A stretch of 64,000 bases of DNA from Geodermatophilus aquaeductus (GTDB taxonomy: Bacteria > Actinomycetota > Actinomycetes > Mycobacteriales > Geodermatophilaceae). The notes beneath the pieces were generated by a model, which was not told where the DNA came from, did no database searches, and saw only the letters and a list, made by a program, of their open reading frames with translations. The stretch is from positions 372,001 to 436,000 of the forward strand of contig NZ_FXTJ01000004.1 of assembly GCF_900182545.1 (NCBI RefSeq). Reading direction: 5' to 3'. Made by a program: the position numbers and the translations under genes. Below are positions 33,505 to 49,670 of the stretch, piece by piece (the first letter of the stretch is position 1; each line of letters begins with the position of its first letter).

Positions 33505-34908
33505 TCAGGGACGGACCACCGACTGGGTGTCCGCAGCCTTGCTGCGCTCGGCTCGGGTGAGCCGCTTGGCCCTCGCCGCGACCGCGGGTGCAGCCAAGCT
33601 GATCGCTCCCCGGATGGCGCGCGGCAGCCGCGGGATCCGGTCGTAGTCGATGCCGCCCCAGGGCGGTTGCGGGTCGTAGTCGATGGCCCGTTGCACCCGG
33701 CGGGCGGTGGCCTCGTCGGTCAGCCGGGCGGCGAGGTGCAGGGCCATGTCGATGCCGGCGGAGACTCCGGCGGACATGAGCAGGTTGCCGTCCTCGACCC
33801 ATCGGCGTTGGTGGTACGTGGCCCCCAGGTCCTCGAGGATCCCGGAGTAGAACCAGTTGGTCGTCGCGTCCCGCCCCTCCAAGAGGCCAACGGCGCCGAG
33901 GATCAGCGAACCGGTGCACACCGACGTGACCAAGTCCGCGGACGCAGCTGTGGCCCGCACGTAGTCGCGGACCCGCGGGTCGCTCATCGCTCGGATGGTG
34001 GGCAACGCACCACCGGGCACGAGCACGATCGCCGGGTGCGGGACCTCCTCGAACGTCCGGTCCGGGACCACCGCCACGCCGACGTCGGTGGGCACCGGCT
34101 CGCGGCGGGCCCACACGGTCACGCAGCGGTAGCCCGGCGCGAACCGCTGCAGCATGGTCAGCACCTGCAGTGGGCCGACCACGTCCAGCACGGTCAGCCC
34201 CGGGTAGAGCACGAGGGCGATGAGCCGCTCGTCGCTTGCCGCAGGAGCGGCGATTGGCGCGCTGCCGGGATCCCGCAGCGTGCGGGCGAGGGCGGCGTCG
34301 GCGGGGTCCGGGTCCACCCGGCCGAACGGCGGCTGAGGGTCGTACTCCGCGGACAGCTGCCCGAACCGGGCGATGGCCTTGCTGCGTAGCCGGGCCAGCA
34401 GGGGCAGCGCCATGTCGATGCCGGCCGTGCCACCGGCGGCGGTGTGCAGCCGGCCGTCGGCTCGCCACCGCTGGTCGGCGGGAATCACGCCGAGCTCCTC
34501 CAGCGGCTCGCGGAAGGCCCAGTGGATCGCCGACCGCTGGCCCCGCAGCAGGTCGGCGGCGGCCAGTACCAGCGCTCCATTGCCGGTGGCGCCGACGACC
34601 TGCGCCTCGGCGGTGGCCGAGCGGACGTAGGACAGCAGCGCTCCGTCCTCCGCCGCGGCCAGGGTGGCCGCGCCGCCGCCGGGCACGATCACCGCCCACG
34701 GGTTCGGCATCTCGGCGAATGTGGCGGCCGGCTGCAGCCCGAGCGGCGTGTCGGTGGCCAACGGCTCGGCGCGCTCGCCGACCACGACGGTGCGGTACCG
34801 CGTGCCCCCGATGCCGGGGGTCTTCAGCACGGTGAGCGGGCCGATCAGGTCCAGCGGGGTCACGCCGGGGTAGACCGGGAAGGCGAGGACCTTCTCGCTG
34901 GCGGGCAT
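33505..34908 (-). CDS. tandem DJ-1/PfpI-domain protein
   Basis: A 467-aa fusion of two DJ-1/PfpI (class I glutamine amidotransferase-like) domains of the isonitrile-hydratase/AraC-sensor type, at about 5-210 and 228-430. Each ends with the YDPQPPxG hallmark. The C-terminal copy keeps the nucleophile elbow (TSVCTGSLILGAVGLL, Cys331). The N-terminal copy has Asn110 instead (GATGNGALVLAAADLL) and should be inactive. ATG 34908-34906 follows AAGGAG. It is the last gene of the minus-strand set that includes the multicopper oxidase. Confidence 0.88.
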   Translation of the reverse strand: MPASEKVLAFPVYPGVTPLDLIGPLTVLKTPGIGGTRYRTVVVGERAEPLATDTPLGLQPAATFAEMPNPWAVIVPGGGAATLAAAEDGALLSYVRSATAEAQVVGATGNGALVLAAADLLRGQRSAIHWAFREPLEELGVIPADQRWRADGRLHTAAGGTAGIDMALPLLARLRSKAIARFGQLSAEYDPQPPFGRVDPDPADAALARTLRDPGSAPIAAPAASDERLIALVLYPGLTVLDVVGPLQVLTMLQRFAPGYRCVTVWARREPVPTDVGVAVVPDRTFEEVPHPAIVLVPGGALPTIRAMSDPRVRDYVRATAASADLVTSVCTGSLILGAVGLLEGRDATTNWFYSGILEDLGATYHQRRWVEDGNLLMSAGVSAGIDMALHLAARLTDEATARRVQRAIDYDPQPPWGGIDYDRIPRLPRAIRGAISLAAPAVAARAKRLTRAERSKAADTQSVVRP

Positions 34909-34934
34909 GGCGGTCTCCTTCCGGTGCTGCGTGG

Positions 34935-36062
34935 TCACTTCCGGACCTGGTGCGGGGCCACCTGCGCGTCGGGCGCACCGCGCGGCCCGGGCACTCGGCC
35001 GCTGTTGATCACGGCGGCCGTTCGGCCCACCTGCGCAGCGACGTGGGCGGCGTCGTCGGCGACGAAGCCCAGCAGCGCCGAGCCGCGGGTGTGCTGCCAC
35101 GGCAGGCCGAGGAAGTACAGCCCCGGGACGTCGCTGATCCCGCGGGCGTGGACGACACGGCCGTCGCGCAGCACACCGGGGACGTCGATCCAGGAGTGGT
35201 CGGGCCGGTAGCCGGTCGCCCAGACCACGACGCCCACCTCGCGGCTGGTGCCGTCGGCGAACCGCACGGTGCGGCCGGCGGCCTCGACCAGCCGCGGCCG
35301 GAACCGGACGCCGGTCCGCTGCAGGCCGCGGCGGCTGCTGCCGATGAGAGTCTCCTGGCTCCGCATCCGGCGGCCGAGCCGGGAGTTCGCGGTGACCCGC
35401 ATCAGGCCCAGCCGGGTCAGCCACCAGAACAGGTCGCGGCCGAGCAGCCGCTGCGGCAGCGCCGGGTAGGCCGCACCGACCGACAGCTCCACCGGCCGGG
35501 CCGCGGCCAGCTCCGCGGCGATCTGGAAGCCGGAGTTGCCGCCGCCGACGACCAGCGCAGGCCCCGCGGGCAGGGCATCGGGGCTGCGGTAGGCGGCGCT
35601 GTGCAGCTGGGTGACCGAGTCGTCCAGCCCGGCGGCCAGCGGCGGCACGAACGGCGTCTGGAACGGCCCGGTGGCCACGATGACCTGCCGGGCGGTGTAC
35701 GTCCGGTCGGCGGTGCTGAGCCGGAACCCGCCGTCGGTGCGCTGCAGCCCGGTGACCCGTGCGCCCAGCTCCACCGGCAGATCGAGGGCGGCGGCGTAGC
35801 CGCGCAGGTACTCAGCGACCGCCTCCTTGCCCGGGTAGGTGCCGGCCGGGGCCGGGAACGGCAGGCCGGGCAGCGCGTCGTGCTCGGCCGGGGTGAACAG
35901 CCGCAACGACTCCCACCGCGTGCGCCAGGTGTGCCCGAGTTCTGCTGCCGCCTCCAGGACCAGGAACCGCAGCCCCTGCCGGCGCAGGTGCCAGGCGGCG
36001 GCCAGGCCGGCCTGCCCGCCGCCCACCACGACGACGTCGAACGGCTCGACCGGGGCGCTCAC
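34935..36062 (-). CDS. flavin-containing monooxygenase-like NAD(P)/FAD oxidoreductase
   Basis: A 375-aa two-dinucleotide flavoprotein. FAD site [16 protein letters not shown] (residues about 12-27), the WESLRLFTP substrate-side motif, NADPH site [17 protein letters not shown] and the late [10 protein letters not shown] are all present. It resembles the CzcO/YhcS-type 'flavoprotein involved in K+ transport' group, which oxidises small molecules. GTG 36062-36060 overlaps the multicopper oxidase stop (GTGA), so it is translated in coupling with it. Confidence 0.88.
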
Positions 36063-37908
36063 GACGTCGCCGCCCGGTCCACGGTGAAGCTGAACATCAT
36101 CCCGGAGTGCATGTGCTCGGCGATGTGACAGTGCGCCATCCACAGGCCCGGGTTCGTGACGTCGAGCAGGATGTCGACGGTTTGCCCGGTCCGGATGAGC
36201 ACGGTGTCCTTCCACACCAAGTTGGGCTCGGGCATCCCGTCGCGGGCCAGCACAAGGAAGCGGCCGGCGCCGTGGATGTGGAACGGGTGGTGCATCGGGT
36301 GGTCGGAGTCCATCTCGTTGACCAGCCGGATCTTGACGCGCTGCCCGACGGTGAACCGCCAGTCGACGGGCAGCCCGTCGCGGCCGGTGGTGCGGTCGAG
36401 CAGCTTCCACCGCATCGTCTCGGTGGTCGTGGTCCGGTTCATCTCGGCCATCTCGTCCTCCCACTCGATCCCGTCGGCGGTGGCGGGACCGTGGTGGTGG
36501 GCGTGCCCGTGCGCGGCGTCGCGGTCGCTCGCTGACACCTCCTGGGCGGCGGAACCGTGGCCCATGTCGTGGCTCATGTCGTGGCCCATGCCGGGGTCCA
36601 TGCCGTCGCCGTCGTGGGCCATGTCGTGGCCCATGCCGTGGCCGTCGTGGGTCATGTCATGGTTGGCGGCGCCGGCCGGGCCGGTGGCCATCAGCTTCAT
36701 GCCGCACGTCGGGCAGCGCCCGGGCTGATCACTGACCACCTCCGGGTGCATCGGGCAGGCGTACGTCACCGCAGGTGCTGTGGCCATGAGCTTCATGCCG
36801 CACGTCGGGCAGCGCCCGGGCTGATCACTGACCACCTCCGGGTGCATCGGGCAGGCGTAGGTCACCGGTCCGGCCGCCGCGGTCGCGTTCGGGTCGTCCA
36901 TCTCCGCGACGATGCCGAGGACCTTGTCCGGCGGCGCGGCCAGCCACGTCTCCATCTGTTCCCGCTCGGCGGCCAGCTCCGGTGCGGTGCGCAGCGTCTC
37001 GAACTGCTCGGCGAGCGGCGGCTCTGCAACGTCTGCGGTGACGGTGATCGCCGCCAACCGGTAGGTCCGGTTCGGGGTGCGGTGCTCGAGGGCGTACTCA
37101 CCCGCCCGGTCGAACAGCACGTCGACGACCGCCCGCTCCGACGGGGCCTGCACCACGTCGTCGACGAACTGCTCGTGCTCCACCCGGCCGCTGTCCCCGC
37201 CGATGAGCTTCATCCGGGCGCCGGGCACGCTAGCCCGGAAGACGCGGCTGTTGGCGGTGTTGGTCAGCCACAGCCGGACGACCTCGCCGGTCCTCGCGGT
37301 GAACGCCGGGTCGGTCTCGCCGCCGGTGAGCATCAGGTTGCCGTAGCGGCCCATCGCCGCGTAGTTGGTCTCGGTGCGGCTGAACGGGGCGATGACGCCG
37401 TCCTCGAGAGCAGGTCGTCGAGGGTCAGCACCAGGTCGCGGTGCGCCGGTGGCCAGTAGTCCGGCTCGGCCGGCTCGACCAGGATGCTGCCGTAGAGGCC
37501 CAGCTCCTGGGTGACGTCCTCGCGGATGTGCGGGTGGTACCAGTACAGGCCCGGGTCTGGGAACTGGATGCGGTAGGTGAACTCCCCGCCCGGCGGGATC
37601 GGCGCCTGGGTCTCGTGCGGCACCCCGTCGTAGCGGTTCTCCAGGCGCAGCCCGTGCCAGTGCACGGTGGTGTCCAGGTCGGTGTCGTTGCTGACGTGCA
37701 CGACGACCTCCGAGCCCTGCCGCACCTTCAGCGTGGGGCCGGGGATGGAGCCGTTGTAGCCGAGCATCCGCACCGTGGTGTCGCCCAGCCGCTTGGCGAC
37801 CGGGCCGGGCTCCACGTGCAGCTCCTCGCCGTCGGCGAGCTCGAGCACCTCGGGCCTGGTGGCCTCGGGCAGGTCAGTGATGTCGTTGGAGAAGAACGTG
37901 GTGTCCAC
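36059..37908 (-). pseudogene. multicopper oxidase with metal-binding repeats, frameshifted
   Basis: A laccase-like copper oxidase of about 616 codons, broken by one frame change at about 37405-37411. Before it lie the first cupredoxin ligands ([17 protein letters not shown]). After it, in the other frame, come the rest of the fold and the C-terminal ligands ([27 protein letters not shown]), so all copper sites exist. Between the cupredoxin domains sits an insert: two heavy-metal-binding repeats ([19 protein letters not shown]) and a Met/His/Asp-rich linker. GTG 37908-37906 has AGGAGG at 5 bp. One extra or missing base would restore a normal protein; the break is either real decay or a sequencing error. 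The frames are 37333-37908 and 36059-37354. Confidence 0.8.
36685..36867 (-). repeat. 96-bp tandem duplication encoding two metal-binding repeats
   Basis: Units 36685-36771 and 36781-36867 differ at only two or three of 87 positions, at a 96-bp (32-codon) period. Each encodes one heavy-metal-binding finger (CPMHPEV ... CPTCGM) in the oxidase insert. The near identity shows the duplication is recent. Confidence 0.85.
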
Positions 37909-38055
37909 GGTGACCTCCTGGTCAGGTTGCTGAGACAGCTGTCGGTCCTGTGGGGGCGTCGTCCATCCGCAGTCGACTCCCTCCCCCGCCACCGGGCGGT
38001 TTGGATCTCGCGTGGGCGTGGCCGCGTTGCTCGACCCGGTGGTCTCACCGGGTGC

Positions 38056-38502
38056 TCACGACAGGAACGGGACGCCGGCCACGATCGCGACGGCGATGAG
38101 CGCGGCGGCGACGAAGTCGACGGCGGCACAGAACGGCGGCCACCAGCGGGTGCCGGACACGAAGCCGGTGCGGTGCTGCCACATGTCCTTGACGCCGTGG
38201 CCGGCCAGGCCGGCGACGATCAGCCACGCCGGACCGCTGACCGCGGCCGCGGCGACGACCACGAAGGTCGCCGCGACGACCATCTCCACGGCGAGGACGT
38301 GCCGGCGCCCATCGGCGACGGCGAAGCCGATGTAGACCGCGGCGATCACGGCGAGCCCGAGGGCGTAGACGGTCGCGGAGTCCACCCAGAAGAAGGCCAA
38401 CGGCGAGGCGGCCTGCAACACGCCGACGACGACGCCCCACGCCACCGGTGAGCGCAGGCTGCCGCGCTCGGAACTGGCCGGGACGGCGGTGGTGCTGATC
38501 AT
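38056..38502 (-). CDS. hypothetical four-helix membrane protein
   Basis: A 148-aa integral membrane protein with hydrophobic segments at about 18-38, 44-62, 70-95 and 125-146. The loop before the last helix carries GHGVKDMWQHRTGF and RWWPPFCAAVD, with two His and one Cys that could bind a metal. ATG 38502-38500 has GGAGG 5 bp upstream and overlaps the stop of the HMA-like gene. A decayed copy of the same gene lies at 46173-46400. Next to a copper oxidase, a role in copper handling is plausible but unproven. Confidence 0.78.
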   Translation of the reverse strand: MISTTAVPASSERGSLRSPVAWGVVVGVLQAASPLAFFWVDSATVYALGLAVIAAVYIGFAVADGRRHVLAVEMVVAATFVVVAAAAVSGPAWLIVAGLAGHGVKDMWQHRTGFVSGTRWWPPFCAAVDFVAAALIAVAIVAGVPFLS

Positions 38503-38858
38503 CAGGACCTCCGGCTGGGGCGGTAGTGGGTCTCGGGGCTGTGGCCGAGGGTCGGGGTGGACCGGACCTCCTCGGACCGGTGATGTCGCCGGGTTTGCGC
38601 ACCAGATGGCCCTGTTCGGGTGGTGCCGGGAGGCGGGGGGAAGTCGGTGGCCGGGGCGGCGGTGTAGTCGGCGGCGGTGTAGCCGGCGGCGGTGATGGCC
38701 GTGGTGATCGCGCCGGGATCGGCTGAGCCGGTCACCTGCACGGTGCCGGTGGCCAGGTCGGCCCGGAGGGTCTCCACGCCCGGGACGTCGCTGATGACGG
38801 CGCTGATCGCCCGGACGTCCGCCCGCGCGGTCATCGCGGGCACCTGGACCGTGATCAT
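38502..38858 (-). CDS. HMA-fold protein lacking the CxxC metal motif
   Basis: A 118-aa protein. Residues 1-70 follow the heavy-metal-associated fold (ITVQVPAMTARADVRAIS, VPGVETLRADLATGTVQV, then AITTAITAAGY). The canonical GMTCxxC is AMTARAD, so it has no cysteines there. The tail is disordered and basic. ATG 38858-38856 follows GGGAG. It is the first gene of the minus-strand set, directly downstream of triple-repeat site A, and overlaps the membrane protein gene. Confidence 0.75.
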   Translation of the reverse strand: MITVQVPAMTARADVRAISAVISDVPGVETLRADLATGTVQVTGSADPGAITTAITAAGYTAADYTAAPATDFPPPPGTTRTGPSGAQTRRHHRSEEVRSTPTLGHSPETHYRPSRRS

Positions 38859-38902
38859 GGCGTCTCCCTCGGCGGGTGGGCTGCCCTCACCGTGGCCGGG
38901 GG

Positions 38903-38931
38903 CGCTGTCCGGGCGCTGTCGATCCGCTGAC
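38903..38931 (-). promoter_or_regulatory. triple heptamer activator site A (BTAD/SARP type)
   Basis: On the minus strand GTCAGCG, GACAGCG, GACAGCG recur at exact 11-bp spacing (plus-strand copies start at 38903, 38914, 38925). Eight bases after the last repeat is the -10-like CACGGT, and the HMA-like ATG is 44 bp from the site. It also lies 101 bp upstream of the divergent BTAD regulator. Confidence 0.75.
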
Positions 38932-39032
38932 CGGGAGGTCGATCCGCAGGCCTGGGCTCGTTGTGTGCGTGCCCGGTGCGGTCGACAATCGGCGCCGCGA
39001 CCAGACGGACTCGTTCCGGGGAGGGACGCCGC

Positions 39033-42000
39033 ATGGAGATCCGCGTCCTCGGGCCGGTCGGGCTGGCCGTCGACGGTCGGGTCCGATCCATGCCCGGCGG
39101 TGGCGAGCGGGAGCTGCTCGCGCTGCTGGCGCTGTCGGCCGGTCGGGTGGTCCCCGTCACCACTCTGGTCGACGCGCTGTGGGGCGAGGCGCTGCCGGCG
39201 AATCCGGGCAACGCACTGCAGGTGCGTGTCTCCAAGCTGCGCCGCGCGCTGACCACGGCCGGCGCGCCGAGCGAGCTCGTGGTGACCCGCCCGCCCGGCT
39301 ACCTGCTCGACGTCGACCGCGACCGCGTCGACGCGCTGCGGTTCACCGACCTGGTGACCGCCGCCCGCGCAGAGGCCGCCGCCGACCCCGGGGTCGCGGC
39401 CCGGCGATACCGGGAGGCACTGGCGGCCTGGCGCGGCCCGGCGCTCGCCGAGTTCGCCGGCGCGACGTGGGCTGGGCCGGAGGCCGTCCGGTTGAGCGAG
39501 CTGCAGTTGGCCGCCCGGGAAGAGCTGATCGACCTGGAGCTGGCCGCCGGCCGGCACACCGAGGTGCTCGGCGAGCTCGAGCAACTCACCGCCGCGCACC
39601 CGCTGCGCGAGCGGCTGCACGGCCGGCTGATGCTCGCCCTCTACCGGGCCGGCCGGCAGGCCGACGCGCTTGCGGCCTACCAGCGTGCCCGCGCCGTGCT
39701 CGACGCCGAACTCGGCCTGGAACCGAGCGCGGAGCTGCGTGGCCTGCAGGAGGCGATCCTGCAGCAGCGGCCGGACCTCGCGGCGCCCGCGCGGGCCGCG
39801 ATCGCGCCCGCCCCGGACGCGAGCGCGGCGCCGGCCCGGCCCCGGCTGCCGGCGCGGCTGACCTCGTTCCTCGGCCGCGGGGCCGACCTGCAGCGGGTGG
39901 ACGAGCTGCTGCGGACCGCCCGGCTGGTCACCGTCACCGGACCCGGTGGCGTGGGCAAGACCAGTCTCGCCCTGGAGGCCGCCCGGGCCGCCACCGCGCG
40001 CTTCGGCGACGGTGTCGCCTTCGTCCGGCTGGCCGGCGTCACCGACCCGGCACAGGTGTCCTCGGCCGTGCTGGCTGGGCTGGGGATCCGGGACGTGGCC
40101 ACGGCGACTGCGGAGGACCAGCTGCTCGGCCACCTGCGGGCCCGCAGCGTGCTGCTGGTGCTGGACAACTGCGAGCACCTGGCCGACGTCTGCGCGCTGC
40201 TCGCCGAGACCCTGCTGGAGTGCTGCCCCGACGTGCGGCTGCTGGCCACCAGCCGCGAGCCGCTGGCCGCCCGCGGCGAGGTGCAGTACGCCATCGACCC
40301 GCTGCCCGTGCCGCCGGAGGCCGCCGACGCGGCCGCGCTGGCCGGCAGCGCCGCCGCCGCACTCTTCCTCGACCGGGCCCGCGCCGCCCGGCCCGACTTC
40401 GCCGTGCGCGACCAGGCGGACGCCGCGGCCGTCACCGACGTCTGCCGTCATCTGGACGGGATGCCCCTGGCCCTCGAGCTGGCCGCCGCCCGGGTGGCGG
40501 CGCTGCCGGTGGGCGAGCTCGCCGCCCGGATGGGTGACCGCTTCACGCTGCTCACCACCGGTCCCCGTACCGCGGAGGCCCGGCAGCGCACGCTGCGGGC
40601 CACCGTCGACTGGAGCTTTCAGCTGCTCACCGACTCAGAACGCGTCCTGCTGCGGCGGCTGTCGGTGTTCCGCGGCAGCTGGACCCTGCAGGCGATGCAG
40701 GCCGTCGCCGCGGAGGAGCCGCTGGACCCGCCGGCGGCCGTGGACCTGCTCGGCCGGCTGGTCGACCGGTCGCTGGTCGTGCTCGACCGCGCCCGGGATG
40801 ACCGGGCCGGTGGGCCGCGCTACCAGCTGCTGGAGACGATCCGGCAGTACGCCGCCGAGCGGCTGGCCGAGGCCGGCGAGACCGACGCGGTCGCCCGGGC
40901 GCACGTCGGCTACCTCACCGCCCTGGCCGAGCGGGCAGAGGTGGAGCTGCGCGGCGACGGGCAAGCACGCTGGCTGCCGCGGCTGGCCGCCGAGCGCGAC
41001 GACATCGACGCCGCACTCGCCTGGTGCACCGCGCACACGGACACCGAACCGGACGCCGGGCTGCGACTGGTCGCGCCGTTGGGCTGGTACTGGTACTTCG
41101 CGACCCATCCCGACGGCGGCCGGCGGGTCGCCGCCGTGCTCGACGCCGCGCTCGGCGGCTCACCGGAGGCGCGGGCGCGGGCGCTGCAGGCGCTGGCCGT
41201 CGCCGCCCGCCCCGGCGCGTGCATCGTGCACCCCGACCCCGCGTGCGCCGCCGCCGCCAGGCAGAGCCGGGTCCTGTTCGCCGAGCTCGGCGACGCGTCT
41301 CGCGCCGCGCTGTCGGACACCCTGCTCGCCGTCGAGGCCATCGGCAGCGACGACCCGGCCGCGGCCTTCACCGTCCTGGCCGCGGCCGAGCGGGAGTTCA
41401 CCCGGGACGGCGACGCCTGGTGCGCGGCGCTGGCCGACTTCGTCCGGCTGGAGCTGCACGCCGGCACCGGTGACCTGGACGCGGCCACCGCGGTCGGTCA
41501 CCGGGCGCTGCTGGCTTTCCGGGCGCTGGGCGACCAGTGGGGCGTGTCGGCCATCCAGTTCCACCTCGGCATGGCGCTGCACCGCGCCGGCCGGCTGGCG
41601 GAGGCCCTGGAGATGTACGAGGGGGCGCTGGCCAGCGTGCGCGGCGTCGGCCCGGCGAACACCGTCCAGTACGCCCTGGCCGGCGCCGGGCACGTCACCC
41701 TGCTGCTCGGCGACGCCGAGCGGGCCGCCGCACTGTTCGCCGAGTCCCACGCGGTCGCCCGCCAACTCGGCGCCCACGGCAACCCGCGGGCCGCGGTCGG
41801 CGAGGGACTGCTGGCCCGCGAGCGCGGCGACCCTGCCGCTGCCCGGGAGCGCCTCGCCTTCGCGCAGCTGCTGCTGACCGGCCTGACCGAACCGGAGTGG
41901 ACCGCCACGGCCCTGGTCGCCCTCGCTCACGTCGCCGAGGCCGACGGCGACCTGGACAGCGCCGAGTTCTCCCACCGCCGGGCGTGGCAGACCGCGCCCG

Positions 42001-42269
42001 GGCACGCCGCCGCGCTGGAGGGGCTGGCCTGCGTGGCCGCCGCGCGCGACGACGCCGAGGCCGGGGCCCGGCTGCTCGGCGCGGCCGCGGCCTGGCGGCG
42101 GCGTCGGCACCGGCCCGCCGGTCGGCTCGAGCGGGCCGATGCCGGCCGGGCCGAGCAGAGGGCCCGCGCGGCCCTGGGCGACGAGGGGTTCGACGCGGCG
42201 TACCGGGCGGGCCACGCCGAGCCCGATGCCGTCCTCGACGACGCCGACCGCGTGCCCGCGCGGCGCTGA
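39033..42269 (+). CDS. AfsR/SARP-type regulator (BTAD, NB-ARC, TPR)
   Basis: A 1,078-aa transcriptional activator. An OmpR-type winged helix (1-95, MEIRVLGPVGLAVDG, NALQVRVSKLRRAL) is followed by the BTAD domain (about 95-245), and an NB-ARC ATPase with P-loop GPGGVGKTSLA (about 303-313) and VLDNCEHL. Helical TPR-like repeats run to the end. ATG 39033 has GGGGAGGG upstream. Family members bind direct heptamer repeats 11 bp apart. Three such sites occur within 7 kb, one just upstream of this gene, so it is the likely controller of the HMA/oxidase set and the CPBP and HD genes. Confidence 0.92.
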   Translation: MEIRVLGPVGLAVDGRVRSMPGGGERELLALLALSAGRVVPVTTLVDALWGEALPANPGNALQVRVSKLRRALTTAGAPSELVVTRPPGYLLDVDRDRVDALRFTDLVTAARAEAAADPGVAARRYREALAAWRGPALAEFAGATWAGPEAVRLSELQLAAREELIDLELAAGRHTEVLGELEQLTAAHPLRERLHGRLMLALYRAGRQADALAAYQRARAVLDAELGLEPSAELRGLQEAILQQRPDLAAPARAAIAPAPDASAAPARPRLPARLTSFLGRGADLQRVDELLRTARLVTVTGPGGVGKTSLALEAARAATARFGDGVAFVRLAGVTDPAQVSSAVLAGLGIRDVATATAEDQLLGHLRARSVLLVLDNCEHLADVCALLAETLLECCPDVRLLATSREPLAARGEVQYAIDPLPVPPEAADAAALAGSAAAALFLDRARAARPDFAVRDQADAAAVTDVCRHLDGMPLALELAAARVAALPVGELAARMGDRFTLLTTGPRTAEARQRTLRATVDWSFQLLTDSERVLLRRLSVFRGSWTLQAMQAVAAEEPLDPPAAVDLLGRLVDRSLVVLDRARDDRAGGPRYQLLETIRQYAAERLAEAGETDAVARAHVGYLTALAERAEVELRGDGQARWLPRLAAERDDIDAALAWCTAHTDTEPDAGLRLVAPLGWYWYFATHPDGGRRVAAVLDAALGGSPEARARALQALAVAARPGACIVHPDPACAAAARQSRVLFAELGDASRAALSDTLLAVEAIGSDDPAAAFTVLAAAEREFTRDGDAWCAALADFVRLELHAGTGDLDAATAVGHRALLAFRALGDQWGVSAIQFHLGMALHRAGRLAEALEMYEGALASVRGVGPANTVQYALAGAGHVTLLLGDAERAAALFAESHAVARQLGAHGNPRAAVGEGLLARERGDPAAARERLAFAQLLLTGLTEPEWTATALVALAHVAEADGDLDSAEFSHRRAWQTAPGHAAALEGLACVAAARDDAEAGARLLGAAAAWRRRRHRPAGRLERADAGRAEQRARAALGDEGFDAAYRAGHAEPDAVLDDADRVPARR

Positions 42270-42347
42270 CCAGCGCTCCGACGACGGGCGGTGAACAGGC
42301 CCGGGTCGCAGATCTCGATCACCACTGCTCCAGGACGTCGGGTGCGG

Positions 42348-43283
42348 TCAGGCCGCGGAGCCGGGCATCGAGACGGTGGCCTGCGTGGGCCGGCGGTGGG
42401 ACGCACCGAGCCGGGCGCGGGTTCCCGTGATGGCGACCAGGCCGATCACGGCGAGGGCCAGCAGGTGCATGAGCGAAGCGAACGGCTGGTCGGGGTAGAG
42501 CCGGGCGAAGAACCCGGCGCCGAAGCCGCTGCCCCCGGCGACGCCGTTGCCGGCCGCGTGCAGCAGGCCGACGAGGAGCAGGCTGCCGGTGCGGTTGTAG
42601 GCGAACCCCATCAGCGCCCGGATCGGGATGTTGACCACGATCAGGAACGCCATCAACGCCACCGCCATCGGCAGGGGGCTGCCGACCACCAGGGCCACGT
42701 GCTGCAGCGCGAACAGCGGGGCGGTCAGCGCCGCGGCGCGCATCGGGGTGGTGCGGACCTGCAGCCGGGCCTGGACGAAGCCCATCCAGGCCACCTCCTC
42801 GGCCCAGTTGTTCGGCACCAGGGACACCACCGTCTGCATCAGCAGCCCGAACACCAGCGCCGACACCAGCGCCCCGGTGCTCAGGGCTGCGGTCGGTGCG
42901 CCGAAGAACGCGAGCGCCAGACCGGTGGCCAGGGCGGGCATCCCGGCCAGGGCGAGGGCGTACCAGCGCGCCGAGACCCACACCTCGACCGCCCGGCGCC
43001 ACAACTGACGCAACCCGGCCGGCCCGTCGACGACCCGGGTGATCACGACGGCCGGCAGCAGCAGCCCGATCAGGGTGCTGGCGACGACGAACACCTGCGC
43101 CGGCAGCTCGACGCCGTGGCCGCGCGCGACGAGCGGGGCGAACACCAGCGCCTGACCGACGGTGAAGAACCACACCAGGAACGCGGTCAGCGGCCGGCGG
43201 CGGACGAAGCGGGCCACGGCGTTGCCACCAAGCCCGGCCGGCGCCGGACTCGGGTGGGACCGGTCGTACGTGGTCGTGTTCAT
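42348..43283 (-). CDS. CPBP-family intramembrane protease-like protein
   Basis: A 311-aa polytopic membrane protein (about eight helices) of the CAAX protease/bacteriocin-processing family. The first motif reads NNWAEEVAWMGFVQARLQ (EE kept, the usual Arg of EExxxR replaced), then FALQHVAL and LLHAAGNGV supply the two His motifs. Its N-terminus, TTYDRSHP, is shared with the unrelated HD protein because the promoter region was duplicated. ATG 43283-43281 follows AAGGAG. Triple-repeat site B lies 81 bp upstream. Confidence 0.85.
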   Translation of the reverse strand: MNTTTYDRSHPSPAPAGLGGNAVARFVRRRPLTAFLVWFFTVGQALVFAPLVARGHGVELPAQVFVVASTLIGLLLPAVVITRVVDGPAGLRQLWRRAVEVWVSARWYALALAGMPALATGLALAFFGAPTAALSTGALVSALVFGLLMQTVVSLVPNNWAEEVAWMGFVQARLQVRTTPMRAAALTAPLFALQHVALVVGSPLPMAVALMAFLIVVNIPIRALMGFAYNRTGSLLLVGLLHAAGNGVAGGSGFGAGFFARLYPDQPFASLMHLLALAVIGLVAITGTRARLGASHRRPTQATVSMPGSAA

Positions 43284-43364
43284 GACGGCTCCTTCACGGC
43301 GAGGACTCCGGCTCCCGACGCTGTCCGGAACCGGTGGTGCGGCGCCGGGAACGCTGCTGGAGCC

Positions 43365-43393
43365 CGCTGTCGCGGCGCTGTCGATGCGCTGAC
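43365..43393 (-). promoter_or_regulatory. triple heptamer activator site B
   Basis: GTCAGCG, GACAGCG, GACAGCG on the minus strand with plus-strand starts at 43365, 43376 and 43387 (11-bp period). Eight bases further is the -10-like CAGCGT. Upstream of the CPBP gene. Confidence 0.75.
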
Positions 43394-43407
43394 CACGGCA
43401 GACAGCC

Positions 43408-43449
43408 GTGGCCGGTAGCCGTGGAAGGGATTCCACGGCTACCGGCCAC
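43408..43449 (-). terminator. terminator of the alpha/beta hydrolase gene
   Basis: A perfect 19-bp stem (43408-43426 with 43431-43449) and GGGA loop, 36 bp after the hydrolase stop and just upstream of site B, separating the two transcripts. Confidence 0.85.
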
Positions 43450-43484
43450 CCACGGGGCGACCTCGGCCGGCGACTGCGGCCCCG

Positions 43485-44864
43485 TCAGTCCGGCGGGAGG
43501 TCCGTGCCCGTGCGCACGGCCCGGACGACGTCGTCGACGGCGTGCGCCGACTGCTGCGCGCCGGAGGCCTCGTCGAGCAGGCCGACATGGGTGGCGGCCG
43601 CCTGGCGGTGGCTGCTGTTCGTGGACAGCGCGGCCATCCGGTTCTGTGCCTCCGCCCAGGCGGCATCGGCGTGCGGCCCGGCGGCGGTGAGGACCACCAG
43701 CGGCATGCCGCCGAGGGTGGACAGCTCCTGCGCCTGGCTGAGCAGCGCCGGCATGGTGGCGGTCTCGTCCACGGTGTTGCGCCAGCCGCGGGGGCTGGCG
43801 GCGAACGCCTCGTACTGGCTCGCCGCCGGCTCGGGCAGGGCCGACCAGAAGGACGTCGGGAGCAGGCGCCCGACGCCGAGGCGGGCGAGGCTGGGCACCA
43901 GGGCGACCGGGCCGGGCGGGCCCGCGTGGGACGTGCCGGCGGCGGTCCGGTAGGGGCTGGTGGTGTCGAGCAGGACCATCCCGGCGACCTGCTCCGGATA
44001 GCGGTCGGCGTAGACCATCGCGTGGTCGCCTCCGATGGAGTGCCCGACCAGCACGTACGGACCCCGCTCGCCGGCGGCGTCCAGCAGGGCGTGCAGATCG
44101 GTGGCGGCAGCCACCCCGTCCTGCGGGCCGGGCGCGTCCTCGCTCCAGCCCTGCCCGGCGCGGTCGTAGGCACAGACGCGGGCGGTATCGGCGACGGCCG
44201 GGGCAATCCGCGCCCAACTGGCGGAGAAACCACCCAATCCGCTCAACAACACGACGGTCGGGCCGCCGGAGCCGGTGCAGTCCAGGTGCAGCCGGTGGCC
44301 GCCGACGTCGTAGAGCCGGCCGGGCATCGCGGAGCTGTGCTGATCGGAGGCCAGGCCGATGGTCTCGACCGCACCGCCGACGGCCGCGGCGGCCGTCACC
44401 GCCACGACGGGGTACAGCAGCCAGCGGCCGCGGCCGGCGGCCAGGCAGCGGCGCACCCGGATCCCCATCCACACGGCGAGCGCCAGCAGCAGCGGCGGCC
44501 ACACCCAACCCGCGGCGGTCAGAGCTGGGTCGTCCGGAGCCGTCACCAGCAGCCCCACACCGGTGACTCCCAGCGCGGCGGCCGGAACCCAGGCCCACCG
44601 CTGCGGCTGCGTGGTCATCCGGGTCGACAGGAGAGCCAGCATCGCCCAGCCGGCCGCGAAACCGACCAGCGCCGACCCGGTGATCACGGCCTCGGATCCG
44701 CTGCCGAACACCAGCAGAGGAAGGACGACGGCGAGCACCGTCCCGATGAGCAGCGATCCGACGATGACCCGGCGGATGGGGCCGGTGCGTGGCCGCGGGT
44801 CGGTGGCGGACGGCCCGCCAGCGGCGGTCGGGGGTCGGGGGGTGGGATGCGTGGCGGTGGCCAT
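43485..44864 (-). CDS. membrane-anchored alpha/beta hydrolase
   Basis: A 459-aa protein. Residues about 30-165 form four to five transmembrane helices; the rest is an alpha/beta hydrolase fold, with oxyanion region LLSGLGGFSASW, nucleophile elbow VGHSIGGDHAM, acidic VLLDTTSPYR region and a late His (ATHVGLLD). It is probably an exported or membrane-bound esterase or lipase; the substrate is unknown. It lies 160 bp after the HD gene on the same strand with no terminator between, so it may share the site C promoter. Confidence 0.87.
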   Translation of the reverse strand: MATATHPTPRPPTAAGGPSATDPRPRTGPIRRVIVGSLLIGTVLAVVLPLLVFGSGSEAVITGSALVGFAAGWAMLALLSTRMTTQPQRWAWVPAAALGVTGVGLLVTAPDDPALTAAGWVWPPLLLALAVWMGIRVRRCLAAGRGRWLLYPVVAVTAAAAVGGAVETIGLASDQHSSAMPGRLYDVGGHRLHLDCTGSGGPTVVLLSGLGGFSASWARIAPAVADTARVCAYDRAGQGWSEDAPGPQDGVAAATDLHALLDAAGERGPYVLVGHSIGGDHAMVYADRYPEQVAGMVLLDTTSPYRTAAGTSHAGPPGPVALVPSLARLGVGRLLPTSFWSALPEPAASQYEAFAASPRGWRNTVDETATMPALLSQAQELSTLGGMPLVVLTAAGPHADAAWAEAQNRMAALSTNSSHRQAAATHVGLLDEASGAQQSAHAVDDVVRAVRTGTDLPPD

Positions 44865-45024
44865 GACGGTGCCTCTTCCGGGAGGAGTGTGGTGGGAGCA
44901 GGTGTTCAGCCTGTTGGCGACGCCGGGTCATCACCCCGGTGGACCCACCGGGATCGCACGCTCGGTGGGATCGACGGCAGTCCTCGGCCGCGCGCGGCCG
45001 GCGCAATCGCGGCGCAGCGGCGGG

Positions 45025-45846
45025 TCAGCCGCGGAACGGTGCGAGCCTGATGGCGAGATCGAAGGCGCCGTAGCGGCGCAGGAACCGCACTCGCCCGCGG
45101 GGCACACGGGCGGCCTCGGTGCGGCAGGCGGCGCTGAACTCGCCCTTGAACCCCAGCCGGGGATGCTGTTCCACCACCGCGGCGAGCAGGTCCGGGGGCA
45201 GCCGCCAGGAGCGCACGCCGACGACGTCGACACCCGCGCCGGCGGCCAGCAGGTAGGCCACGGGGCCACGCGCCAGCGGGACGTTCGGGCTGATGTGCAG
45301 CGTGATCGCGGTGCGCATCGTCTCGGTGGCGACCGAGGACAGGCCGACGTCCTCGGCGACATCCCGCGCGATGCGTGCACTGCTGCGGGTGAAGTCGACG
45401 TCCTGATCGCTGGTGGGCAGGCCGGTGTCGTGCAGCAGCGCCGCAGCGAACAGCAGCCCCGCGTCGACGGTGAGCCCCTCCAGCGCGCCGAGGGCGGCAC
45501 CGAAGGCGTAGGTCCGGTAAGAGTGGTTGAGCAGCGCGGGACTGAGTCGGCGCTCCGCCTGCTCGACGGCGGCCCGGGTCAGCGCCGACGTCGGCGGAAC
45601 CAGCATTGAGGGTGCGACCCGGGCGCGGCGGCCGGAGTTCAGCCCGACCAGCATCGACAGGCGACCGGCCGCGTTGACCGCGTGGGTCCGGGCCACGGGA
45701 CCCAGCAGCGAACGGCGTTCGGCACCCGACAGCTGACCACCGGTGCGGTCTACCCAGCCGCGGGTCCCGAGGTCTGCGACAGCGGGGTCGCCGCGCCGGG
45801 CCGGCGTCGGACCCGGGTGGGACCGGTCGTACGTGGTGGCGTCCAT
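45025..45846 (-). CDS. HD-domain protein
   Basis: A 273-aa metal-dependent phosphohydrolase-like protein. His ligands are visible in LLNHSYRTYAF and the HD pair in ALLHDTGL, with TLHISPNV further on. The layout resembles the HD cyanamide-hydratase/phosphohydrolase group; the substrate is unknown. Its N-terminus (TTYDRSHP) duplicates that of the CPBP protein. ATG 45846-45844 has CGGAG upstream, and site C lies 80 bp upstream. Confidence 0.85.
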   Translation of the reverse strand: MDATTYDRSHPGPTPARRGDPAVADLGTRGWVDRTGGQLSGAERRSLLGPVARTHAVNAAGRLSMLVGLNSGRRARVAPSMLVPPTSALTRAAVEQAERRLSPALLNHSYRTYAFGAALGALEGLTVDAGLLFAAALLHDTGLPTSDQDVDFTRSSARIARDVAEDVGLSSVATETMRTAITLHISPNVPLARGPVAYLLAAGAGVDVVGVRSWRLPPDLLAAVVEQHPRLGFKGEFSAACRTEAARVPRGRVRFLRRYGAFDLAIRLAPFRG

Positions 45847-45926
45847 GACGGCTCCGTCGCGGCGAGGGCCCCGGCTCAGACGGCTGTCGGACCCGGTGGT
45901 GCGGCACCGGGAACGCTGCTGCACTC

Positions 45927-45955
45927 CGCTGTCGCGGCGCTGTCGAAGCGCTGAC
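45927..45955 (-). promoter_or_regulatory. triple heptamer activator site C
   Basis: GTCAGCG, GACAGCG, GACAGCG on the minus strand, plus-strand starts at 45927, 45938 and 45949. Eight bases after the last repeat is CAGCGT, as at site B. Upstream of the HD gene and possibly the hydrolase gene. Confidence 0.75.
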
Positions 45956-45971
45956 CAGGGCAGCACGCGCC

Positions 45972-46009
45972 GGCCGGTAGCCGCGAGACGGATCTCGCCG
46001 TCACCGGCC
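45972..46009 (-). terminator. imperfect terminator hairpin
   Basis: GGCCGGT/ACCGGCC and GCGAGA/TCTCGC arms with a CGGA loop and a mismatched middle. It lies downstream of the decayed membrane-protein copy and matches the position of the perfect hairpin at 43408-43449. Confidence 0.5.
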
Positions 46010-46172
46010 ACCGCAGGGCGATCTCGGCAGGGGCCGGGGCGGCACCAGTGGCCGGCGGTGGACACGGCCGTTGCGGCACTTGATGCGGTGGTGACCATCG
46101 TGCGGCTCTCCTGGTCGGGTGAGGTGGACGTGTGCGGATGAGCGTCGGCGGCCGCCGAGCGGCTCGACCCGG

Positions 46173-46400
46173 TCATCTCGCCAGGTCTGCTCGGAGCGAG
46201 AAGGGCGAGCCAGCCATGATCGCGACGGCGAGGAGGCCGACGGCGCCGCAGAACGGCGGCCACCGGCGGGTGCCGGTCACGAGATCGGTGCGGTGCTGCC
46301 CCAGGTCCTTGATGCCGTGGCCGGCCAGCCCGGCGACGATCAGCCCGTGGAGACGGCCGTCGCGGCCGCCTTGGTGGTCGTCGCCGGGGCCGCGGTGGTC
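46173..46400 (-). pseudogene. decayed, partly inverted copy of the four-helix membrane protein gene
   Basis: Minus-strand bases 46173-46340 encode LIVAGLAGHGIKDLGQHRT, then TGTRRWPPFCGAVG and a stop, closely matching the C-terminal half of the gene at 38056-38502. The preceding part (VETAVAAALVVVAGAAVV versus VEMVVAATFVVVAAAAV) is found on the plus strand at about 46341-46400, so this piece has been inverted. No start codon remains. Together with the HMA-like gene at 46554 it is a broken duplicate of the HMA/membrane pair at 38 kb. Confidence 0.65.
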
Positions 46401-46553: not shown

Positions 46554-46787
46554 TCAGGGGCGGAGGGTGAAGCCGGCCTTCTCGACGGCAGCGGCGATGT
46601 CCGCGCGGTCGACCGGCCGGGAAGCGGTGACCGTGACGGTGCCGCTGGCCGGGTCGACGGTGATCGACGCGACGCCGGCGAGGTCGGCGATCGCCGCTGT
46701 GAGCGCGCGCCGGCGCTGAGCACCGGTCATACCGGGGACGGAGAAGGTGGTCGAGCCGATGAAGGTGCGCGGCGTGCCGGAGAACAT
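46554..46787 (-). CDS. second HMA-fold protein lacking CxxC
   Basis: A 77-aa protein from ATG 46787-46785 with GGGAG 5 bp upstream. It has the HMA order (TTFSVPGMTGAQRRRALT, VASITVDPASGTVTVTA, ADIAAAVEKAGF) but GMTGAQRR replaces GMTCxxC, so it has no cysteine. It is related to the protein at 38502-38858 and likewise precedes a copy, here dead, of the membrane-protein gene. It probably retains protein-protein rather than metal-binding function, if any. Confidence 0.7.
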   Translation of the reverse strand: MFSGTPRTFIGSTTFSVPGMTGAQRRRALTAAIADLAGVASITVDPASGTVTVTASRPVDRADIAAAVEKAGFTLRP

Positions 46788-46943
46788 GAGCACTCCCGGG
46801 ACAGCTGGGTGGTGCACCCGTCGATGAGCAGACTCGTCACACCGGGAACCGCTCCCACCACGCGAACCGCCGGGTTCACCGCCAGGTTCGCCGCGGGATC
46901 GAATCCCCGGAGCCTCGCCCGCGAGATCGGTACCGTCCGCGTC

Positions 46944-49670
46944 GTGCTGGTCGGGCGGGACGCCGAGCGCGCCGAGATCGCCGCGCTGCTCGATGCCGCC
47001 CGCGCGGGAACCGGGGGCGCCCTCCTGGTGCGCGGCGTGGCCGGGTCGGGCAAGTCGGCCCTGCTCGCCGACGCCGTCGTCGCGGCGGCGGGGTCCGCAC
47101 AGTCAGGGTTTCGGGTGCTGCGGACGTCCGGCGTCGAGTCGGAGTCGCCGCTGGCCTTTGCCGCGCTGCAGCGGCTGCTGTGGCCGCTGCGTGGCAAGAT
47201 CGGCGCCCTGCCGGTGCCGCAACGGGCGGCGCTGCGGGCGGCGCTCGGTGAGGCCGAGGGCGATGGCGACCGGTTCCTGACCTTCCTCGGCACGCTGAGC
47301 CTGTTCGCCGACGCCGCCGAGGAGGCTCCCGTGCTCGCCGTCGTCGACGACGCGCACTGGCTCGACGACGCCTCCGCAGCGGCGCTGCTGTTCTGCGCCC
47401 GCCGGCTGCAGGCCGAACGGGTGGTCCTGCTGTTCGCCGCTCGCGACGGCGAGGCGCACGCCTTCGACGCGCCCGACCTGCCCGGCCTCGTCCTCACCGG
47501 CGTGACCGGGGAGGCGGCCGCCGCGCTGCTGGCCGCCCGCGCTGGCCGCGCGGTCGACCCGGCGGTCCGCGACCAGCTGGTCGCCGCCACCGCAGGCAAT
47601 CCGCTCGCGCTCGGCGAGCTCGCCGACGCCCTCACCGGCGACCAGCTGGTCGGCCGGCTGCCGCTGCCGGCGCAGCTGCCCCTTACCGGCGGGGTCGAGC
47701 GCGGGTTCCTCGACCGTTACCGGCGACTCGGCGGGCCGGCGCAGCGGCTGCTGCTGCTCGCCGCGGCCGACGACACCGGCAGGTTGACCGTCGTCCGAGA
47801 CGCCGCCGACCGCCTCGAGGCTGGCGACGACGCGCTGGACGAGGTCGAGCGGGCCGGGCTGCTCCGAGCCGACGGGGACGCGGTCACCCTGTTCCACCCG
47901 TTGGTGCGCTCCGCGGTCTACCAGGCGGCGAGCAGCACGCAACGGCGGGCCGTGCACCGCGCGCTGGCCGACGCGCTGGCCACCGACCCGGACCGCCGAG
48001 CGTGGCACCTGGCCGCGGCCGCCGACCGCCCCGACGAGCAGGTCGTGGCCGCGCTCGACGACGTCGCCGCGCGCGCCTCGGGTCGCGGTGGCCACGAGGC
48101 CGCCGGCGCCGCCTGGGCCCGCGCCGCGGAACTGACCGCCGCCGGGCCGGCCCGCGCCCGCCGGCTGTACCTGGCCGCAGCCTCGGCCTGGCAGGGCGCA
48201 CACCCGTCCCGAGCGGCGGCGCTCGCGGCCGCCGCCGCGGCCGAGGCGACCGAGCCGCTGCTGCGCGCCCAGCTGCTGGCACTGCAGGGCCAGATCGCCT
48301 GGAACACCGGGTCGCTGAACGACGGCTACGACCTCGTCGTACAGGCCGCGCAGGCCGCCGGCGACATCGACCCGGCGCTGACGCAGCAGCTCGCGGTGAT
48401 CGCCGCGGCCCTGGCCGTGTACGGCGCCCGCTCACCCCACGCGGTGGACCCGGCCGAGCTGGTGGCCGCCCCCGCACCGGACGCCCCGCCCCGGGTGCGG
48501 GCCGCGGCGGCCCTGCTGCGCGGATTCACGGCCGCGGCCCGCCGGGACTGGGCATCCGCGGCGGACTCCTTCCGCGACGCGTTCGCGCTGACCGACACCG
48601 ACGTCCGGGATGACCACGTGCAGCGCAACCTCGTCATCGCCGCCCTGGTCATCGGCGACGACGAGCGCGGGCTGCGGCTGCAGGAGCAGCTGCTGACCGC
48701 CGCCCGCCGCGCCGGAGCGCTCGCCACCGTCGAGTACGCACTGACCCGCGGCGTGCAGATCCTGATCGCCGTCGGTGCCTGGGCGCACGCGGCCGGCGCG
48801 GCGACCGAGGCGGTGCCGCTGGCGGCCAGCACCGGCCACCCCGGGATGGTCGCGCTCCCGACCGCGCAGCTCGCCCTGCTGGCGGCCCGGCGCGGCGACG
48901 ACGATGCCGAGCGTCTCATCGACGAGGCAGCCGGCATCCGGGCAGGGCACGCCGGCGGGGTCACCGACGTCGTCGTGGTCGACCTGCTGCACTGGGCGCG
49001 GGGCCTGCGCGCTGCCCGCCAGCCGGCGACGGCCCTGCACTACCTGACGCAGATCACCGAGTCCGGGGTGAGCCGGCTGGCGGCGATCGACCGTCTGGAG
49101 ACGGCCGTCCAGGTCGGCCGGGACGACCTCGCCCGCGCGTGGCTGGCGGAGCTGGCGGAGTTCGCCTCCGGCACCGGCGCTCCCGCCGAAGTGGCCGTCG
49201 TCGAGCACGGCCGCGCCCTGCTGGCCGACGGTCCCGCGACCGGGGAGCACTTCCGGCGTGCCCTCGCCGCACACGTCGACTCGCCGCGCCGGCCCGATCG
49301 GGCGCGCACCGAGCTGGCCTACGGCCAGTACCTGCGCCGCGCTCGCCGCCGCGTCGACGCCCGCGAGCACCTGCGCGCGGCCCTGGCGTTGTTCGAGGAG
49401 CTCGGCGCCACGACGTGGGCCGACCGCGCCGCCGCCGAGCTGCGCGCCTCCGGAGAGACCGCCCGCCGCCGCGACGTGTCCACCGCCACCGATCTGACCC
49501 CACAGGAACGCCAGGTCGCCACCCTGGTCCGGCAGGGGCTGTCGAACCGGGACGTCGCCGCGCAGCTGTTCATCAGCCCCCGCACCGTCGACTTCCACCT
49601 GCGCGGCTGCTTCGCAAAGCTCGGCATCACCTCTCGGGTCGAACTCGCCGCTCATCCGATCGACACCTAG
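46944..49670 (+). CDS. LuxR-family regulator with AAA ATPase (LAL type)
   Basis: About 908 aa. An N-terminal AAA/MalT-like ATPase has Walker A GVAGSGKSALL (about residues 30-40) and Walker B VLAVVDDAHW (about 130-139). Long helical TPR-like repeats follow, and a C-terminal LuxR HTH (LTPQERQVATLVRQGLSNRD, about 848-905). I chose GTG 46944 (VLVGRDAER) because the earlier codons, open back to 46809, are GC-poor at third positions; ATG 46824 remains possible. It is divergent from the second HMA-like gene. The target is unknown. Confidence 0.88.
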   Translation: MLVGRDAERAEIAALLDAARAGTGGALLVRGVAGSGKSALLADAVVAAAGSAQSGFRVLRTSGVESESPLAFAALQRLLWPLRGKIGALPVPQRAALRAALGEAEGDGDRFLTFLGTLSLFADAAEEAPVLAVVDDAHWLDDASAAALLFCARRLQAERVVLLFAARDGEAHAFDAPDLPGLVLTGVTGEAAAALLAARAGRAVDPAVRDQLVAATAGNPLALGELADALTGDQLVGRLPLPAQLPLTGGVERGFLDRYRRLGGPAQRLLLLAAADDTGRLTVVRDAADRLEAGDDALDEVERAGLLRADGDAVTLFHPLVRSAVYQAASSTQRRAVHRALADALATDPDRRAWHLAAAADRPDEQVVAALDDVAARASGRGGHEAAGAAWARAAELTAAGPARARRLYLAAASAWQGAHPSRAAALAAAAAAEATEPLLRAQLLALQGQIAWNTGSLNDGYDLVVQAAQAAGDIDPALTQQLAVIAAALAVYGARSPHAVDPAELVAAPAPDAPPRVRAAAALLRGFTAAARRDWASAADSFRDAFALTDTDVRDDHVQRNLVIAALVIGDDERGLRLQEQLLTAARRAGALATVEYALTRGVQILIAVGAWAHAAGAATEAVPLAASTGHPGMVALPTAQLALLAARRGDDDAERLIDEAAGIRAGHAGGVTDVVVVDLLHWARGLRAARQPATALHYLTQITESGVSRLAAIDRLETAVQVGRDDLARAWLAELAEFASGTGAPAEVAVVEHGRALLADGPATGEHFRRALAAHVDSPRRPDRARTELAYGQYLRRARRRVDAREHLRAALALFEELGATTWADRAAAELRASGETARRRDVSTATDLTPQERQVATLVRQGLSNRDVAAQLFISPRTVDFHLRGCFAKLGITSRVELAAHPIDT

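Follow-up and report, generated by a model that had tools for sequence, protein, structure and literature searches.

A 64,000-nucleotide stretch of the Geodermatophilus aquaeductus genome (contig NZ_FXTJ01000004.1, positions 372,001 to 436,000; G+C content 74.7%; hereafter the window) encodes, at 39033, a large member of the SARP activator family and carries three promoters with the same triple heptamer repeat. We propose, with a probability of roughly 0.8, that this SARP activates the promoters of a gene set for heavy-metal-associated (HMA) and multicopper oxidase (MCO) proteins, of a CPBP-type protease gene and of an HD-domain gene through these heptamers, and that together they would form a SARP-controlled copper-defence regulon. 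The sites, their geometry, their tracking of one SARP clade and the copper gene context are observed directly in the sequences compared here, and these comparisons strongly support a cis–trans pairing between sites and SARP clade. The regulon would be common to that clade, with varying gene content, in several families and classes of what are presumably actinobacteria.

The pattern GTCAGCG-N4-GACAGCG-N4-GACAGCG, with its period of 11 bp, has three exact matches in the window, each on the minus strand: site 1 (38903..38931) lies ahead of the HMA gene, site 2 (43365..43393) ahead of the CPBP gene and site 3 (45927..45955) ahead of the HD gene. Predicted −10 hexamers start 8 bp past the last repeat in each case, also on the minus strand (CACGGT at 38889..38894, CAGCGT at 43351..43356 and CAGCGT at 45913..45918). 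A preliminary description of the window had reported these repeats, the -A---T hexamers at this distance and the three downstream genes, and all of them were recovered, the genes through Pfam matches to PF00403, PF02517 and PF01966. Shuffling the window gives an expectation of 0.03 triple-repeat matches when up to 3 mismatches are allowed. Nor is the motif common across the genome (5.43 Mb, 28 contigs), where the three sites in the window are the only matches at up to 2 mismatches, one further match at 3 mismatches lies on a different contig, and a control pattern read backward has none. Coincidence within coding sequence was rejected as the source of the repeats because the genome holds only these three at up to 2 mismatches. 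The regulon had been described as local; the triple repeat is indeed confined to the window within its own genome, but the regulon is not limited to this lineage.

The candidate regulator (39033..42269, plus strand), already noted as a 1,078-residue BTAD/TPR protein beside the first site, gives Pfam matches above the cut-offs for Trans_reg_C, BTAD, AAA_22 and TPR_12, corresponding to an OmpR-type winged helix (PF00486, 40.3 bits against a cut-off of 26.2), a BTAD domain (PF03704, 149.6 against 22.1) and a STAND ATPase and TPR region in which NB-ARC falls below its own cut-off. Sequence comparison identifies EmbR and AfsR as its relatives of solved structure; a profile built from 16 of its relatives can be aligned to AfsR (8K60) over positions 2–945. 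The predicted model of a 260-residue part is all-helical, with a predicted local distance difference test (pLDDT) score of 92. The protein fails the AfsR equivalog model NCBIfam NF053617 (211 bits against a cut-off of 1430). Judged by these profiles, it is a large AfsR-type SARP and, by the NCBIfam cut-off, not an AfsR ortholog.

The occurrence of the motif was followed across 112 genomes of the same family, in which SARPs were sought with the first 270 residues of the 39033 protein. Ten genomes encode a SARP at least 60% identical over these residues, the next best match being 54%, and the triple motif with up to 2 mismatches and a −10 hexamer is found in all ten. Triple matches at 1–2 mismatches occur in nine other genomes, with the A---T hexamer at the right distance in G111 only. 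A group of SARPs at 51–54% identity (in G009, G101, G041, G042, G049 and G084, and the second copy in G086) is accompanied by GACAGCG-N4-GACAGCG sites, several per locus. The shorter pattern GACAGCG-N4-GACAGCG-N8-NANNNT, with up to 1 mismatch, has 77 matches in the family. SARP loci account for 45 of these (43 at no more than 8.5 kb from such a SARP, the other two on a contig end in G027 with the rest of the gene set), and every one of the 16 SARP-bearing genomes has at least one. Exact matches number 22 in the 112 genomes, and 21 of them lie no farther than 8.5 kb from a SARP of this type; 13 of the 16 SARP-bearing genomes have an exact site, versus 1 of the 96 others (Fisher 2e-13, uncorrected for kinship). 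None of 13 other SARP loci in the family has a site with up to 1 mismatch plus a −10, and two of the 13, one of them L120, have a site at 2 mismatches plus a −10. A comparison of sites ahead of orthologous genes, which the preliminary description had proposed, gave a site ahead of the HMA or HMA-MCO gene in 8 of the 9 other close-ortholog loci (in a weaker form in G024); in the ninth (G040) the site precedes a DUF1330-like gene, by sequence reading, that lies just ahead of the MCO gene.

The target genes do not predict the sites in the same way. An HMA-MCO query matched 18 of the 112 genomes at E ≤1e-40, and nine MCO loci lie away from any such SARP (G054, G037, G092, G042, G041, G040 contig 15, G000 contig 16, G086 contig 158 and G084 contig 146). 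No site with up to 1 mismatch plus a −10 was found at these nine, nor at 2 mismatches plus a −10 at the seven of them checked at that level. The G054 locus has no site even though its MCO and hydrolase reach 90% and 73% identity with those of the window. Because the nine SARP-less MCO loci have no site, the motif does not track the target genes; across the loci surveyed, it is the SARP that the motif tracks.

SARP-bound promoters are described as having direct repeats 11 or 22 bp apart, with the 3' repeat 8 bp from the −10 element, in the AfsR structure paper (PMC10936776). We collected sites with up to 1 mismatch to two repeats from 22 loci (clades A and B, G215 and family f16), imposing no −10 condition and keeping the 3'-most register, which gave 60 sites, 56 of them distinct. 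NANNNT starts 8 bp past the last repeat in 50 of the 56, whereas no other offset between 0 and 24 has it more than once; the hexamer ends in T in all 56. The six hexamers that lack the A (TTTCCT, TTCGCT, TCTCCT) all come from promoters of the SARP gene itself, in clade B and in G215, sites with such TTTCCT-like −10 elements being found at the SARP genes of L102, L103, L105–L107 and L223. Because clade B SARP genes carry in their own promoter a site with a TTTCCT-like hexamer without the A, this suggests that these SARPs may regulate themselves through a weaker promoter. Both the repeat geometry and the tracking of the SARP clade support the AfsR/SARP reading given in the preliminary description, with binding predicted. 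The same repeats could instead be bound by another regulator, such as the LuxR-type LAL regulator adjoining site 3 (46809–49670), whose gene begins 0.85 kb from that site. Of the nine other clade A stretches, however, L032 alone has a strong LAL relative, whereas the SARP is present in all of them, and an arrangement of 11-bp direct repeats at 8 bp from the −10 is what is described for SARPs (PMC10936776); we therefore regard control by the LAL protein as improbable.

The three sites in the window are not all independent of each other. Sites 2 and 3 lie in the two copies of a 240-bp promoter duplication with 82.5% identity (43232..43470 and 45795..46031, both on the minus strand), which takes in the promoter together with the opening ~15 codons of each gene, CPBP and HD. 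As these two sites stem from one duplication, the window holds two independent sites rather than three: the claim of three promoters with a common repeat stands in that all three are exact, but not as three separate occurrences. Their position inside a duplication would also suit an explanation in which the sites are passengers of a spreading repeat, with no regulatory role. Site 1, however, resembles the others over 30 bp only and the spacers differ, and the repeats and the −10 distance are kept in those 50 of 56 distinct sites, which come from three families, so that we give the passenger explanation almost no weight.

The genes that follow the sites point to copper. In clade A, sites precede an HMA or HMA-MCO gene, often with flavin adenine dinucleotide (FAD)-dependent oxidoreductase and DJ-1-like genes next, and they also precede genes for CPBP, hydrolase, DUF3159 and MFS pump proteins and possibly an ABC ATPase. 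The clade B sites lie ahead of genes for a CopA ATPase, CopZ, a 75-residue HMA protein, an MFS pump, a 114-residue protein and the SARP itself. The CopA that was tested, from L102, passes the copper-ATPase model TIGR01511 (576.8 against 397), and sister SARPs with sites before CopA, CopZ, HMA and MFS genes are 44–45% identical to the SARP of the window. MCO, CopA, CopZ, HMA, MFS and FAD oxidoreductase genes recur as partners of these SARPs among the gene types looked for, which did not include biosynthetic clusters. As judged from these predicted functions, the common denominator of the site-bearing genes is copper handling. The regulon had previously been described as joining a copper oxidase set, a protease and an HD protein; the copper core (MCO, CopA, CopZ, HMA) holds, whereas CPBP, HD and hydrolase are additions in some clade A loci only.

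More distant relatives extend this association. With the 260-residue C-terminal part of the regulator as query, 19 of 397 genomes in the order matched, 13 of them from the family of the window. G215 and three f16 genomes have sites with 0–1 mismatch ahead of CopA, CopZ or HMA genes, and G164 has a 2-mismatch site ahead of CopZ. At the G314 locus, where the recognition helix is a different one, neither a site nor copper genes were found. A phylum-level search with the same part matched 12 of 396 genomes, 11 besides that of the window. Copper or HMA genes accompany the SARPs of G515, G590 (two copies), G731 and G805, with 1–2-mismatch sites plus a −10 in 4 of these 5 loci, and no such site or copper genes were found in G474, G461, G536 and G774. 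G633 and G784 were uncounted, as contigs under 6 kb with the SARP alone visible (the N-terminal part being unmatched in G784), and G446 and the G805 fragment L257 were likewise left out of the counts. L257 is a 4.5-kb contig holding a C-terminal SARP piece with an internal stop and a CxVHP motif, next to an MCO gene and without a site; the G805 SARP in L258 matched in several pieces and may be broken.

Two residues of the recognition helix separate these loci. AfsR contacts bases through R92 and T88 in the described structure (PMC10936776), and K68 of the 39033 SARP aligns with R92 without gaps. Of the 17 usable loci outside the family, ten have R65 together with K68 (G164, G215, G199, G235, G255, G515, G590 twice, G731 and G805); a copper or HMA gene lies nearby in all ten, and a site plus a −10 is present in 9 of 10 within 2 mismatches and in 6 of 10 within 1. 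The seven without R65 and K68 have neither a copper or HMA gene nor a site. When all loci are taken together, the R65/K68 pair is found in 27 of 27 copper-linked SARPs versus 0 of 96 others (123 of 126 sequences being usable, with three of the 99 others dropped), and a site plus a −10 in 26 of 27 versus 7 of 98 within 2 mismatches and in 23 of 27 versus 1 of 98 within 1 mismatch. Of the 98 negatives, 80 are AfsR-like loci of named actinobacteria, taken from among the matches listed in a separate search. In a tree built from all 27 and from 48 of the 96 others (every second sequence), a branch with support 97/89 sets the 27 apart; clade A is named by sequence identity, and the tree places L038 on the clade B side (94/69). 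Pseudonocardia lacus (L198), with CopA and CopZ near its SARP, was rejected as a further member and counted as negative: its helix (HVRVSQLRR) lacks K68 and no site was found, and a CsoR-like gene, by sequence reading, lies ahead of its CopZ gene.

The sites could belong to SARPs of the 39033 type and yet answer a general envelope or oxidative stress, the copper enzymes being one part of a mixed set. The MFS pump, DUF3159, CPBP, hydrolase, HD and possibly ABC ATPase genes behind sites, and the FAD oxidoreductase and DJ-1-like partners, would suit such a signal. Against it, clade B has a site followed by a copper-type ATPase gene, and 27 of 27 such SARPs, versus 3 of 98 others, have a copper or HMA gene as a neighbour (an HMA protein alone in L253), a comparison that leans to the positives because the copper queries came from positive loci. 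We consider a general stress signal unlikely, although it is the more serious of the alternatives to a copper-defence regulon.

Several other observations weigh against this regulon. The Fisher value overstates the association because the genomes counted are related, and scattered 1-mismatch matches are found in 26 of the 96 family genomes without the SARP. Other SARPs are not free of similar sequences: L120 has an exact pair without a −10, and single sites lie near other SARPs in G086, G063 and G111. In L191 (Actinopolymorpha alba), GACAGCG-N4-GACAGAG-N4-GACAGCG-N8-CACAGT at ~8020–8070 adjoins another SARP, with the recognition helix GALQTKVSRLRR, and faces a dehydrogenase-like gene (by sequence reading) unlinked to copper, so similar heptamers may serve other SARPs. 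Sites weaken with distance, the five most distant loci comprising two with a site at 1 mismatch, two with a site only at 2 and one (L255) with none, and the groups of distant loci were labelled after inspection of those loci. In the window itself, the HMA protein lacks CxxC and the MCO frame is broken. Finally, the CxVHP of the candidate metal motif described below is not present in the three f16 SARPs, which have sites and copper genes, and the SARPs of L038, G590 and G731 lack its second Cys.

A plausible mechanism would have the N-terminal winged-helix/BTAD unit of the 39033 SARP bind side by side on the 11-bp-spaced heptamers, which would occupy the −35 position 8 bp upstream of a weak CANNGT −10. 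The bound SARP would then recruit RNA polymerase to the promoters of the HMA-MCO operon, of CPBP and of HD (possibly together with the hydrolase), and the STAND/TPR part would restrain the protein in an inactive form, to be released by a stress signal that is most likely an excess of copper. We infer the binding, the activation, copper as the signal and the sensing site from sequence comparison. For the last of these, the candidate is ACxVHPxPxC (C730, H733 and C738). Among the 16 SARPs of alignment A1, some of them just 44–45% identical to that of the window, these three residues are conserved in 16, 16 and 15, respectively; among 14 paralogs from the family, which align poorly here, the counts are 0, 0 and 1. 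In the predicted model the motif sits between two helices of a TPR-like stack, and CxVHP is present in the distant SARPs of G164, G215, G515, G590, G731 and G805. The Cys-His-Cys motif as a strict mark of the copper clade was disproved by the f16 loci. A tentative suggestion, which we hold at well below even odds, is that the SARP senses copper itself, the Cys-x2-His loop (in most cases followed by a second Cys, four residues past the start of His-Pro) binding Cu(I) and releasing the STAND switch. If true, this would be a metal-sensing STAND activator and would give a large SARP a chemically defined inducer.

The HMA, MCO, FAD oxidoreductase, DJ-1-like, CPBP, HD and hydrolase genes of the locus all lie on the minus strand. 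The 118-residue HMA-domain protein (38502..38858; PF00403, E 2.5e-10) lacks the CxxC metal ligands in the alignment and is followed by an MCO in two parts, an N-terminal half (37333..37920; Cu-oxidase_3; the frame breaks near 37408–37438) and a C-terminal half with HMBD heavy-metal-binding repeats by Pfam (36059..37354). The HMA domain and MCO form one open frame in several relatives (Pfam-checked in L030, L031 and L037), and those of L030 and L031, unlike the window, have a single open MCO frame starting with the HMA domain. A stretch of ~600 bp between the HMA and MCO genes of the window encodes a small membrane-type protein by sequence reading, and the heavy-metal-binding repeat part of the C-terminal half contains an 88-bp near-tandem duplication (97.7%) at 36684–36867. 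Two recurring partners follow: an FAD-dependent oxidoreductase (34935..36086; by Pfam), which adjoins the SARP in L030, L032, L036, L040 and L224–L226, and a double-domain protein (33505..34923), which we take to be a double DJ-1/PfpI-like protein and which has similar genes in L031, L032, L037, L040 and L224–L226. Downstream of site 2 lies the CPBP/Rce1-like membrane protease gene (42348..43283; PF02517, E 6e-11), and downstream of site 3 the HD-domain gene (45025..45846; PF01966), which begins with ~15 codons copied from the CPBP gene. The family closest to the HD protein is cyanamide hydratase (TIGR03401), for which it scores 43.6, short of the cut-off of 109.85. Between them lies an alpha/beta hydrolase gene (43485..44864; Abhydrolase_1), whose G053 ortholog (L037 7867) has its own site. 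A 42-bp inverted repeat (90%) at 43408–43449, between the hydrolase end and site 2, is possibly a terminator. Elsewhere, a stretch at 38093–38291 recurs, partly inverted and 87–88% identical, at 46213–46396, and a second HMA-like domain without CxxC at 46560–46748 is indicated by similarity (E 1e-6) and translation only.

SARPs have been described as activators of antibiotic and secondary-metabolite genes. The gene sets reported here suggest that this class of antibiotic-gene regulator was recruited to copper handling, and a copper-wired clade of AfsR-type SARPs in several families would widen the role of the SARP family. The word copper is absent from the main text of a 2024 SARP review (PMC10972967), and a search found no title or abstract start describing a copper-controlling SARP, which is weak evidence of absence because only open-access PubMed Central papers were covered. 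The AfsR structure paper (PMC10936776) describes as elusive whether the sensor domain of AfsR binds an inducer; the copper gene context predicts an inducer, and would thus offer a handle on that question.

AfsR of Streptomyces coelicolor is a close parallel: the 39033 SARP has the same domain order and matches it over almost its whole length, AfsR likewise uses 11-bp direct repeats with the 3' repeat 8 bp from the −10, and the afsS −10, CACTGT, resembles the CANNGT of the window sites, as given in the AfsR promoter description (PMC10936776). The recognition-helix residues of the 39033 SARP differ from those of AfsR, and its neighbours are copper genes, not afsS. An identification of the heptamer core with the AfsR box was dropped, as two papers give differing forms of that box. 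PimR and other SARP-LAL regulators also have heptamers in threes with ~4-nucleotide spacers, two heptamers being the minimum for binding by PimR and three the optimum in the account given there (PMC5930380). Those proteins differ in their C-terminal half, and their targets are antibiotic genes. The copper regulators CsoR and CueR, which turn on copper export, are small direct metal sensors; the 39033 SARP would share their purpose, but the proteins are unrelated, the SARP being a STAND activator of 1,078 residues.

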